Positions 50,845 through 54,160 of a stretch of DNA of 64,000 nucleotides are shown in pieces. The notes under the pieces are model-generated. The model saw only the letters and a list, made by a program, of their open reading frames with translations. It made no database searches and was not told the DNA's origin. The translations under genes were made by a program, and so were the position numbers. Every line of letters starts with the position of its first letter. Position 1 is the stretch's first letter. This stretch comes from Flavobacterium piscisymbiosum (GTDB taxonomy: Bacteria; Bacteroidota; Bacteroidia; Flavobacteriales; Flavobacteriaceae): the NCBI RefSeq assembly GCF_020905295.1, contig NZ_JAJJMM010000001.1:3906001-3970000 (forward strand), written 5' to 3'.

Positions 50845-52386
50845 TTAGTTTTCACAGAAAGCACCAATTTGCTGTAAATGCTTTTCGGTCTGGTATTTAT
50901 TAAAGTTGTTCCAATGAGGCGGAGAACTTGTTTTTTGTCCGTACATCGCATCCAGGCAAATGTTATTGTCTTTGTACATATCGTGCAAAACTGCCAGAAT
51001 TTTAAAGAAAAACTCATCTAATAATGTGATGGCTTCAAATTCTGATTTTAATGTATTGTAATTAACATCTGAAGGATTTAATAATTGCAGTAAATCCAAA
51101 ACTTCTTGTTTTTCTTCCTCGTTAATTTCAGTAGCATAACCCATTTTTAAAGTTTTAAAAACCAGATTATTCCATGCTTTACTGTCATGAGCCCATTGCA
51201 CATCAGGAAGGTTTAAAGAATGCTCGCAAATTAGGATAATACCAAAAAGAACATCGTTTAAGTATTCTGCCGGAAATTCATCAAAACTTCTGAATTCGAA
51301 ACCGCTTTGGTACATTTTTTCCTGATTAAAATCAAGACCAACTTCAGATAGCATTTCATATTCCATTTCAGCTTCAATCTGATCTCTCCACCAAATGTTT
51401 TCTTCTTTCTCAAATTTTAGTAATTTTCTAAAATCATCCACATTATAAGTCAGGATTTTACCTTTTGGCATCGCTTTATTATACGTTCCCACGCCTATGT
51501 AGCGAGACATTGCATTTCGCATAGAACCTAAAGTAAATTTTTTGTCAAGACTGTAAGTATCACTTATCACGCCCATAATATCAGGACTCCCAAGAGTAGC
51601 AATAAAGAAAGGTTCAAACCATTGCAGTAGATAAATGGCATTGGCGTGCGTTCTTTCAAATTCAGTATAATCTACAATCCTGCTGTCTTCAGTCAAAGAT
51701 GGTAAAGTAATATGAAAATGGTACGTTCCGTTATTAAACAAAACCAGATTTTCCTGATTGGTCATGAACATATTAAGTCCGTTATTGTAATCCGGAAAGT
51801 TTAATTTTCCGTTTAATACAGACGATTCATTGATTTTATCAAGGAATAATTTTTTAGTTGCTCTTAGTTCTTTGCACGATTCACCAATAGTTCTGTTCTC
51901 GAAATATTTGGTTACAAATTCGATCGAATCACCATCAAAGTGTACAGATCCCATTGTTTTGTTTCTCTGGGTAATCATACTCTGAATGTTGTACGGCTGA
52001 TCTTCAAGGAAAAGCTCCATGATCGATTTGCCCAGATAATCAGGATTTTCAGTGGGTTGTGCAATCATTTCACCAGTTGCTGTGTCTACTAATGGTTTGA
52101 TTGGAGATAACATTTTGTGCTGATAATTGATATCGAGTTTTTCCAGTGAATGACTGTTCATCATTCTGCTCACTTTATAGTTTTCATTCAAACCAAAAGC
52201 CTTCTTTAAAATAGGGGCTAAGCTTTCAGGTTTGTAACATTTTCTATAATCGATACTGTATTTCTCAAAACCAATTTTTTCTTGTATAAACTCACCAGAA
52301 ACTATTAGGGATTCTTCAAATTGCATGTAGGTTTCGTTTTCCAATCCTATTCCCCAATAATATTTTTTTGTCTGATTGTCTTTCAT
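50845..52386 (-). CDS. Putative carboxylate-amine ligase (glutamate-cysteine-ligase/amidoligase superfamily)
   Basis: This 513-aa protein has a GS-like fold signature set. WGIGLENETYM (E16, E18) resembles the first metal-binding ExE strand, and GTYHFHITLPS (about 220-230) resembles the histidine-containing strand. GSMRNAMSRYIGVGTY (about 287-302) resembles the S-x-R-x-x-x-x-R ATP/substrate segment, and SGFEFRSFDEFP (361-372) resembles the VEFR-x-x-D end motif. Such enzymes form an amide or peptide bond from ATP, a carboxylate and an amine. The specific substrate is not shown. It may have a promoter 334 bp upstream. It follows, on the same strand, a papain-like protein gene. The family call is by motif only. 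Confidence 0.55.
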   Translation of the reverse strand: MKDNQTKKYYWGIGLENETYMQFEESLIVSGEFIQEKIGFEKYSIDYRKCYKPESLAPILKKAFGLNENYKVSRMMNSHSLEKLDINYQHKMLSPIKPLVDTATGEMIAQPTENPDYLGKSIMELFLEDQPYNIQSMITQRNKTMGSVHFDGDSIEFVTKYFENRTIGESCKELRATKKLFLDKINESSVLNGKLNFPDYNNGLNMFMTNQENLVLFNNGTYHFHITLPSLTEDSRIVDYTEFERTHANAIYLLQWFEPFFIATLGSPDIMGVISDTYSLDKKFTLGSMRNAMSRYIGVGTYNKAMPKGKILTYNVDDFRKLLKFEKEENIWWRDQIEAEMEYEMLSEVGLDFNQEKMYQSGFEFRSFDEFPAEYLNDVLFGIILICEHSLNLPDVQWAHDSKAWNNLVFKTLKMGYATEINEEEKQEVLDLLQLLNPSDVNYNTLKSEFEAITLLDEFFFKILAVLHDMYKDNNICLDAMYGQKTSSPPHWNNFNKYQTEKHLQQIGAFCEN

Positions 52387-52719
52387 TTATACTTACTTTC
52401 TTTTTTAAGGTTATTTTAATTTATAAAGTCATTTTTTATTCAGGAATATAAATTCAATCTGTTAAAACCAGAGACAAGAAACCTATAACGGATTAAGCAT
52501 ATTGTTGCCTCCATTATAAAAGTTTTCGTTTACTTTTAAAAATATAGGAATTTATATTTTAGATTTTTTGCAATTTTATCGACTGAAACATCAATTAAGG
52601 AGTACAATTTTATAATAAGGTTATAAAATCACTATTGTTATTAATTGCTTTTGTATCAATAATTTAAGCAAGAGAATAGCTAAATCACAACTTTTAGTAT
52701 TCTTGTTTTTTCTAAGTTG
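52387..52719 (-). other. Long AT-rich leader upstream of the ligase-like gene
   Basis: The promoter at 52720-52750 would give a leader of about 325 nt before the ligase-like ATG. It has no obvious gene or strong hairpin. The longest frame read here has 24 codons (MEATICLIRYRF...) and is not convincing. A shorter transcript from another start cannot be excluded. Confidence 0.4.
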
Positions 52720-52750
52720 CAAAAGTAGTTTTTTATTATCGTATTTGCAA
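52720..52750 (-). promoter_or_regulatory. Flavobacterial promoter (TTG-N20-TACTTTTG) on the minus strand
   Basis: Read on the minus strand, TTG (52748-52750) and TACTTTTG (52720-52727) are separated by 20 nt, the expected spacing for the Bacteroidota primary sigma factor. It points toward the ligase-like gene and lies between it and the papain-like gene. Confidence 0.6.
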
Positions 52751-52815
52751 GTAGTTAACTTACTGATAATCAATATTTTTTTTTGAATGCCTGAACGATT
52801 CTGCCAAATGTGTTT

Positions 52816-53553
52816 TTATTCGTGATAATACAGCACGTAGGAGGAATATAACTCGTCATTCCACCAGTCTTCCCTGATTTCTGCAAAGTAATTATAATTC
52901 AGTTTTCCGGCTTGAGATTGTAGCGGATATACTACTATATTATTTTCGCGATAGGCTTTATGCAAATCAGTTTCGGGAACAACAGGAACAATATGCCCTG
53001 AAAGTCCTTTTTCTCTTCTTTTGGCACAAATAATTCCAATTCCGCCATTGGTATTTACCTTATTCTGAATTTCATCAACAGTAGCTATTCTTTCCCAGCC
53101 AAAACTCGCTCCCCATTCCGGGAACCAATCGTGTATGGCGCTGGAATAAATACGATCGACCGTTTGCTCAAAAACAGGTTCTACATCTTCACCGTTTAAA
53201 ACTTTTTCGAGAGAATCAGGTGTCCACCAAACGGTTGGGAGGTATACTTTAGAGAAATAGCAATAGTCATACGAGTATACATTGCAATACGTGTCTTCGA
53301 CTGTTTTTTGATATCTTAAGTTGTGTTCGACATCTAATTTTTCAATCAGTTGGGCAATACTTTCTTTTTTAGTCGCAGCATTGGTTAAATCTCTAAACGG
53401 AATAGTGGAATCCATAAGAGGTTTTTCTTTCATTTCCATAGAATCCAGACGGGATTCCGGATCGGGTAACAAATCAGCTTTTTTTATTTTCGTATTCGAT
53501 ATTGTATTATCATCTAAGGGTAACGATGCTACTGATACAGTATGTTTTTCCAT
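52816..53553 (-). CDS. Papain-like Cys/His protein (NlpC/CHAP-type amidase or peptidase)
   Basis: This 245-aa protein has no signal peptide. After an 80-residue charged lead comes TYCNVYSYDYCYFSKVYLPT, with the presumed nucleophile Cys90 in a C-N motif. WFPEWGASFGWERI (143-156), GIGIICAKRREKGLSGHIVP (171-190; His187) and YPLQSQAG (209-216) follow. Cys then His then polar residue is the order in NlpC/P60 and CHAP amidases. It could cleave peptidoglycan peptides or another amide. It is co-directional with the ligase-like gene 429 bp downstream. Substrate is inferred at best. Confidence 0.55.
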   Translation of the reverse strand: MEKHTVSVASLPLDDNTISNTKIKKADLLPDPESRLDSMEMKEKPLMDSTIPFRDLTNAATKKESIAQLIEKLDVEHNLRYQKTVEDTYCNVYSYDYCYFSKVYLPTVWWTPDSLEKVLNGEDVEPVFEQTVDRIYSSAIHDWFPEWGASFGWERIATVDEIQNKVNTNGGIGIICAKRREKGLSGHIVPVVPETDLHKAYRENNIVVYPLQSQAGKLNYNYFAEIREDWWNDELYSSYVLYYHE

Positions 53554-53645
53554 CTTGACTGCTTAAAATTAATTGGCTTAACGTTGCTTTAATTGATTGT
53601 TTATGCAACGTAATTTGATTGGCCAGCGGGTAAATGTAAGGATTT

Positions 53646-53663
53646 TAAACTTTCTAGAGAGTT
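53646..53663. promoter_or_regulatory. 18-bp palindrome upstream of the papain-like gene
   Basis: AAACTTTCTAGAGAGTTT is nearly self-complementary and lies about 95 bp upstream of the start of the papain-like gene. It could be a regulator binding site; none is identified. Confidence 0.3.
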
Positions 53664-53728
53664 TAAAAAAGCGACAAATTGCAGAAAATAACAGAATAAG
53701 CAGGATAATATCGTTGTTTTTAAATACA

Positions 53729-53759
53729 AAAAATGGCATACGATAGGCATGCCATTTTT
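53729..53759. terminator. Bidirectional hairpin terminator
   Basis: AAAAATGGCAT (53729-53739) pairs with ATGCCATTTTT (53749-53759), with T tracts at both ends. It ends the acidic protein gene and insulates it from the papain-like gene. Confidence 0.8.
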
Positions 53760-53785
53760 TTTAATTTTAATATTTAATAATTGGA

Positions 53786-54160
53786 TTATTCGTCCTCTTT
53801 ATTGAGATCATTCTGTTTGTTATTAACAGAAGTATCTTTATTGATGGTTTTATCCTTATCTTCGGTCTGTTCTGATTTGACATTAGAGATATTTTCAAGA
53901 TCAATTTCAGTATTTAGATCTTCTTTGAATTTTTCCTCATATCGGTACGGATCTTCATCTCTTGCATAATTGTCATGATCAACAAGTGTTTCCTGGTCGA
54001 TATAATCAGGGTCGCCTTCTACAAATTCCGGGATAGGTTCTGTAGTAATGGTTCGTTTATATTGATCGTCGCTCTGAATGTTATTTCCATCAACTAGCGT
54101 ATTTTGATCAATAAAATCAGGGTCTGTCTGACCGTATTCGTTGCTGTTTTGCTTTTCCAT
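53786..54160 (-). CDS. Acidic low-complexity protein with a duplicated DPDxIDQxTLVD motif
   Basis: The protein has 124 residues from the ATG at 54160; an upstream ATG at 54196 gives 136. It is highly acidic and Asn/Gln-rich with no signal peptide or predicted fold. DPDFIDQNTLVDGNN and DPDYIDQETLVDHDN are a clear internal duplication about 40 residues apart. The C-terminal third (KSEQTEDKDKTINKDTSVNN) is charged and likely disordered. It has its own terminator and stands beside the papain-like and ligase-like genes. It could be a substrate or a binding partner for them, but nothing in the sequence shows that. No family is recognised. Confidence 0.65.
   Translation of the reverse strand: MEKQNSNEYGQTDPDFIDQNTLVDGNNIQSDDQYKRTITTEPIPEFVEGDPDYIDQETLVDHDNYARDEDPYRYEEKFKEDLNTEIDLENISNVKSEQTEDKDKTINKDTSVNNKQNDLNKEDE

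Follow-up and report, generated by a model that had tools for sequence, protein, structure and literature searches.

The window analyzed in this study is a 64,000-nucleotide (nt) stretch of Flavobacterium piscisymbiosum (contig NZ_JAJJMM010000001.1, positions 3,906,001 to 3,970,000). It carries the gene of a predicted carboxylate-amine ligase with a glutamine synthetase (GS) fold and, across a spacer of 429 nt, the gene of a predicted papain-like peptidase, hereafter the ligase and the peptidase.

50845..52386, minus strand: predicted GS-fold carboxylate-amine ligase gene, an open reading frame (ORF) of 513 amino acids (aa)
52816..53553, minus strand: predicted papain-like (NlpC/P60, Tae1-type) Cys/His amidase-like gene, 245 aa, no hydrophobic start

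The ligase and peptidase genes are a two-gene unit without fixed surroundings. Among 199 Flavobacterium genomes drawn evenly from a larger group (the genus set), 43 contain the ligase and 43 the peptidase, and these are the identical 43. The two genes adjoin in 42 of them, the exception being genome G135, where they lie 336 kb apart. Ligases at least 67% identical to that of the window define clade A (37 of the 43 genomes), in which both genes run in the same direction, G135 aside; clade B (6 of the 43) has ligases of 35–38% identity, and its genes stand tail to tail with a gap of 79–86 nt. Our second collection comprised the best 80 of 150 relatives (named loci), some of whose strains are shared with the genus set. 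The peptidase gene is beside the ligase gene in 78 of these loci, and the remaining two (L145 and L210) are broken by contig ends. Eight of the 78 have a gap of only 38–59 nt, an arrangement resembling an operon. After 93 loci were grouped into 20 ligase clusters at 85% identity, 18 clusters had the peptidase as a neighbor and only 4 had the next gene family. The Fisher figure for co-occurrence (1e-44) ignores kinship and was set aside as evidence. Chance adjacency is rejected on the shared 43 of 199 genomes and on the adjoining genes in 42 of 43 genomes and 78 of 80 loci, and a functional link between ligase and peptidase is very probable. The first-pass annotation had proposed a survey of three genes, the third encoding a small acidic protein; ligase and peptidase do go together, and the acidic gene does not belong with them.

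In a sample of the phylum, the ligase occurred in 8 of 395 genomes, all of the same genus, and in a family sample only in the F. piscisymbiosum genome itself (1 of 100). Record titles lack the word Flavobacterium in 13 of the 80 loci (L141, L146, L200, L202, L206, L207, L210, L212 to L215, L217, and L218). One of them, L207 (CP034120.1), is titled Glaciecola amylolytica and has the pair amid genes reading Bacteroidota-like, so that either its title or the record itself may be in error.

Folds and conserved residues of the two proteins

The 513-aa protein almost certainly belongs to the GS-fold carboxylate-amine ligases, as the first-pass annotation had claimed. Its modeled fold as a whole matches the YbdK/GCS class, and the ligand motifs fall on the expected strands, with E16/E18 on strand 10–19, E156 on 154–158, H223 on 221–231, and E364/R366 on 363–369. 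The motifs named earlier are present (E16-N17-E18; H223-F-H-I; S288-x-R290-x-x-x-S294-R295; E364-F-R366-x-x-D369). Residues E16, E18, D151, D153, E156, R290, S294, R295, E364, and R366 are invariant across 69 aligned ligases, and H223 is kept in at least 90% of these rows. The metal and ATP ligand roles of the motifs are presumably those of E. coli GshA, from which we carried them over, no residue-by-residue match to YbdK having been obtained. The GS-fold is shared with YbdK/GCS2, GshA, and GshF, and more widely with PafA and Dop. Compared with YbdK and its Salmonella counterpart, however, the ligase is only 14–15% identical in the aligned part, is not matched by the Pfam GCS2 model, and has a partner peptidase. 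A gamma-glutamyl-thiol ligase working with a papain-fold partner akin to phytochelatin synthase would place the pair in thiol metabolism, which we regard as the least probable of the explanations weighed here. Searches of Pfam, NCBIfam, PADLOC, and PDB sequences with the window proteins or their alignments returned weak matches only, besides SH3 in 6 of 15 peptidases. As a side observation, the F. piscisymbiosum genome has no GCS2 gene yet encodes a GSH-S_ATP-like ATP-grasp protein (L230, C1:3401798-3402181).

The 245-aa protein very likely belongs to the papain-like NlpC/P60-type class. Across an alignment of 35 proteins, which includes one from a phage contig, Cys90, His187, and Gln214 (in a PLQSQAG block) do not vary. 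In the structure model, Cys90 opens helix 89–100 and His187 lies in strand 187–191; a Cys at the helix N-terminus and a His on a strand are as expected of NlpC/P60-type papain-like amidases such as Tae1 and YkfC, whose fold the model fits. The papain-like Cys/His assignment of the first pass is thus upheld by the predicted fold. While this core is shared with Tse1/Tae1 and YkfC, the peptidase is 20% identical to them in the aligned part and differs in having no NLPC_P60 match, a Gln-Ala-Gly block, and no hydrophobic start. The Pfam NLPC_P60 model did not match any of the peptidases; SH3 was detected in 6 of 15 members and Peptidase_C39_2 weakly (best 0.017). A PHROG scan of 15 peptidases matched four families, the best at 0.00066 in one member and to a family without a stated function. 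An SH3b domain is present in the distant peptidase clade (E 2.5e-9, 6 of 15 members), and the window peptidase is without one. Because no hydrophobic start was seen in it, the window peptidase is predicted to be cytosolic.

This location and fold bring in muropeptide recycling, in which the peptidase would act in the cytosol as a gamma-D-Glu to diamino-acid endopeptidase resembling B. subtilis YkfC and the ligase would re-use a product. YkfC is described as acting on murein peptides and as having no signal peptide (PMC2954226). The distant clade, with SH3b and a papain-like layout, resembles YkfC, as does the cytosolic location inferred from the missing hydrophobic start. However, the window peptidase has no SH3b, a distribution over 43 of 199 genomes is odd for a housekeeping path, and other gene families are kept beside the pair in at most 4 of 20 clusters. 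We consider recycling unlikely.

Viral, phage, and plasmid relatives and the history of the pair

Structure comparison places the closest relatives of the ligase in viruses. In the viral-protein structure library BFVD, the ligase matched a Dasosvirus protein (A0A3G4ZUC6; template modeling score (TM) 0.83, 30% identity) and a Yasminevirus protein (A0A5K0U889; TM 0.81), with further matches in ChoanoV1, mimivirus (R704a), and Cafeteria roenbergensis virus. The clade B alignment, used as a protein-search query, gave 695 matches, of which 120 were listed, and two further protein searches listed 120 of 619 and 120 of 680. Among the 120 listed of 695, 16 are clade-B-like and 104 are others that we call environmental (P0257 to P0360); the latter are 39–58% identical to the first clade B sequence, and ligase and environmental forms share 29–36% sequence identity. 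No ligase was found in the phage or plasmid records searched. The viral contig L220 encodes a 911-aa protein (L220:2568-5300) with an MGC start, the ligase, and a C-terminal saccharopine dehydrogenase (E 2e-27 to a solved enzyme). By inspection, nearby ORFs (a ribonucleotide reductase small subunit and a helicase with uracil-DNA glycosylase) read like those of a giant virus. The MGC start is a possible lipid anchor. Our literature search returned nothing linking giant viruses to glutamate-cysteine ligase or to saccharopine dehydrogenase.

The environmental homologues commonly, not generally, end in a CaaX-like box. Cys occupies position −4 in 75 of the 104 listed proteins, against 1–12 at the other last-twelve positions except −5 (43), and in 0 of 136 clade A and clade B (Flavobacterium-type) proteins. 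Two consecutive Cys occur in the CaaX-like end of 41 of the 104, and among the 75 with Cys at −4, 58 have Ile at −2 and 54 end in S, I, M, or C. Ile at −2 and a final S, I, M, or C fit CaaX prenylation boxes. Such a box would anchor the environmental homologues to eukaryotic-cell membranes; the Flavobacterium-type forms belong to the same family as these and the giant-virus proteins but lack this end. The idea of prenylated giant-virus proteins is not itself new, since the literature includes a paper on a mimivirus Rab GTPase.

On this evidence, the peptidase relatives form a phage family of lysin-like character that no named model of the scanned libraries covers apart from SH3, with a lysis cassette in two of the three contigs examined. 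An alignment-based scan of viral contigs located relatives on 15 (L232 to L245, and L219), and 13 of these could be read as one clean frame of 207–281 aa. Many members of the phage family share the motif TYCN[IV]Y ... SGHI ... QSQAG, and SH3b is present in two of the tested forms (L219 and L233). Gene neighbors were examined in three of the 15 contigs. Both L234 (L234:6972-7421, Phage_holin_4_1 E 3.1e-12) and L242 (L242:6900-7376, E 2.8e-9; both PHROG 199) have a holin gene two genes upstream of the peptidase, and in each of them the peptidase gene overlaps the intervening gene of 196–207 aa by 4 nt; in L245, the peptidase is flanked by tail genes (Gp37-like and tail sheath). A Pfam scan of five phage peptidases matched SH3 models only, and a PHROG scan of four matched nothing up to E 0.01. 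Additionally, tblastn with the L219 phage protein detected plasmid-borne relatives in Hymenobacter and Azospirillum, and there were weak peptidase matches in two phage records. The Azospirillum plasmid protein (L227:9104-10693) has an N-terminal part that looks lysozyme-like by eye (no family match), followed by an SH3-like part and the peptidase.

The phage relatives bear on the main rival explanation, namely that the pair consists of a wall lysin, an endolysin-derived weapon, and a ligase that protects the producer by altering its own stem peptides. In lysostaphin-Lif and zoocin A-Zif, the gene of a secreted wall peptidase has as its partner the gene of a ligase that forms peptides. The holin gene in two of the three contigs examined, SH3b in the distant clade (6 of 15) and in the L219 and L233 phage proteins, and a ligase never found without the peptidase among 199 genomes would all suit such a weapon. 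Zif is also termed a FemABX-like immunity protein in a title cited by PMC9662197. The known pairs nevertheless use M23 and FemABX folds, unlike the GS-fold and papain-like folds here, so the known immunity ligases differ in fold from ours, which may even so function in the manner of one, and no export signal or hydrophobic start was seen in the Flavobacterium peptidase. The third phage contig, L245, has the gene among tail genes, and wall protection would be senseless for the ligase relatives in giant viruses of eukaryotes. The type VI secretion system protein VipB was not found in the F. piscisymbiosum genome (the control was detected in E. coli); TssC (PF17541) gave no match there, and control genomes were equally without a match. 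A wall lysin is rather improbable, if less so than the other alternatives. A phage-conflict module, in which a captured phage lysin and the ligase act abortively or inhibitorily upon infection, would draw on the phage-borne peptidase family, the patchy distribution, and the small isolated cassette without fixed neighbors; PADLOC models, however, match neither protein (none up to E 1), and we give it little credence.

By the trees, ligase and peptidase may differ in their history. The peptidase tree held 29 rows, L237 and L244 being left out for want of a clean single frame, and in it clades A and B group together against 15 phage and plasmid relatives (support 100/100). The ligase tree included 54 of the 104 listed environmental proteins, 8 clade A rows, and 11 clade B rows. 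Each clade forms one group there, with B amid the environmental proteins and a long branch leading to A; a joint A and B ligase clade was rejected (p 0.0004) after the long-branch rows L220, P0339, P0293, and P0283 were dropped. The trees are unrooted, and no direction of transfer can be read from them. Should the split hold, clade B would have swapped its ligase for another from a virus-like pool, retained its peptidase, and taken on a new gene order; such a swap, if true, would argue strongly that the two enzymes have a task in common. A bolder and rather doubtful version has a phage-endolysin-derived peptidase and a giant-virus ligase minus its lipid anchor, with two or more re-pairings that involved distinct ligase lineages, forming a new system of wall lysin and wall-modifying ligase or a new gamma-glutamyl product pathway.

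Control elements and flanking genes

On the minus strand, the acidic-protein gene comes first, then the peptidase gene, with the ligase gene furthest downstream; mreB lies beyond the acidic gene on the opposite strand. The elements around the pair are as follows.

52720..52750, minus strand: ligase promoter of the Bacteroidota type TTG-N20-TANNTTTG (pattern match, relatives' spacers, and alignment)
52387..52719, minus strand: ligase transcript leader, ~330 nt, partly conserved (alignment)
52482..52520, minus strand: predicted leader hairpin (both partners of 1 pair differ in 7 of 16 sequences; the pair is broken in 3)
53728..53760, minus strand: terminator-like hairpin between the acidic gene and the pair (z −5.9)
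53786..54160, minus strand: acidic-protein gene, 124 aa, ATG at 54160

The ligase has a promoter of its own, as the first reading of the locus had proposed. TTG-N20-TANNTTTG is the Bacteroidota promoter consensus. Its one match in the window against 2.2 expected is within chance by itself, and the support comes from related loci, where 45 of 50 comparably long spacers contain the exact pattern. A sigma-70 promoter scan gave 24 matches against 18.3 expected. Because the promoter sits at 52720–52750, the ligase leader is ~330 nt long. Its hairpin shows little covariation. Just before this hairpin there is an inverted repeat, AAAAGT-N-ACTTTT, which is exact in 37 of the 50 relatives' spacers; hairpin and repeat together fall within 52482-52560 on the minus strand. 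The single match in an Rfam scan fell under the curated score (E 0.011) and was taken as chance on AT-rich DNA. The terminator hairpin at 53728–53760 is real and lies between the acidic and peptidase genes, which agrees with the earlier statement that a terminator sets the acidic gene apart; a simple terminator scan did not have this hairpin among its matches, despite its z of −5.9.

With its own promoter in the common layout, the ligase can be switched separately from the peptidase. That promoter, along with parts from two sources (giant-virus-like and phage-like), would suit linked inheritance without shared chemistry, in which the cassette genes have different targets. Against it, G135 retains both genes despite their 336 kb separation, tail-to-tail and head-to-tail layouts alike preserve the pair, and the distant clade may have exchanged its ligase while the peptidase stayed. 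We judge linked inheritance to be improbable.

The acidic protein is not a third member of the unit. It does carry two copies of DPD[FY]IDQxTLVD, the duplicated motif reported for it. Its relatives occur in 28 of the 199 genus genomes, F. piscisymbiosum included, and only 10 of the 28 have the ligase (overlap hypergeometric p 0.048, uncorrected); the acidic gene is near the pair in 13 of 78 loci. Thus, the membership suggested for it was rejected. The same applies to mreB as a lasting, functional neighbor: a close copy (at least 88% identity) is in the flanks of just 12 of 78 loci, and its adjacency to the pair is local.

A shared amide as the proposed target

We read the pair as a module of two cytosolic enzymes that would make and cut one shared gamma-glutamyl-type amide, a reading to which we assign a probability of roughly 0.4. 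The nearest GS-fold relatives join amines at the gamma-carboxylate of glutamate, and the relatives of the peptidase cleave gamma-D-glutamyl to diamino-acid amides. Since both folds belong to families acting on gamma-glutamyl-type amides, the first-pass idea of a single molecule as the target of both ligation and cleavage, which we infer, is better motivated than before. As predicted from the folds, the ligase would activate a gamma-glutamyl-type carboxylate with ATP and couple it to an amine, which may be a diamino acid, and the Cys90-His187 enzyme would cut, or transfer, the same gamma-glutamyl to diamino-acid amide. The fusion to saccharopine dehydrogenase in L220 is a hint that the amine may resemble lysine. 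The pair, both of its enzymes being predicted to be cytosolic, may set the level or length of one small peptide-like product or may free and re-use muropeptide pieces.

Several observations weigh against a shared amide or against other parts of our reading. The ligase's own promoter and the terminator speak against tight co-expression in the window. At the protein level, the Pfam GCS2 model (PF04107) gives no match to the ligase, and hhalign against E. coli YbdK yields a match of 35 columns only (probability 0.3); the fold match of the peptidase is moderate (Foldseek best E 0.044), and the alignment used for folding it had just one row below 60% identity. The viral nature of the environmental homologues rests on the BFVD matches, contig L220, and one "viral metagenome" label (P0306), which is an unclassified-sequence taxon, the other 103 listed environmental proteins being without an organism. 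Scans of viral contigs for the ligase turned up L220 alone, in which no peptidase was detected (tblastn best E 0.32; 14 of 25.6 kb searched), and the peptidase-bearing phage contigs showed no ligase in the sequence searched (best E 0.36, 19 loci). The giant-virus relatives of the ligase belong to cells without a bacterial wall. The CaaX-like end is the majority form in 22 of 42 clusters at 70% identity and in 12 of 30 at 60%, and P0257, P0258, and P0259, the environmental rows that the tree places closest to clade B, are without it. Finally, a single clade of A and B ligases survives when all 74 rows are kept (approximately unbiased test, p 0.058), and the four dropped long-branch rows were picked after the first tree was seen.

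The pairing of a ligase with a Cys peptidase is known in general. Iyer et al. in 2009 reportedly described amidoligase genes paired with papain-like Cys peptidase genes; the general idea is the same, but neither Flavobacterium protein rises above the cut-off of the Pfam amidoligase and peptidase models. A literature search by title, a scope that leaves aside supplements and most subscription papers, found no description of this ligase-peptidase pair. What is new here is that both families are without a model in the searched libraries, and two enzyme families that no family model covers thereby gain a testable context. A GS-fold ligase is common to Flavobacterium and giant viruses, and its environmental forms often have a predicted lipid anchor. 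In Flavobacterium, a ligase and a hydrolase that never occur apart in 199 genomes make the question of their substrate directly testable.

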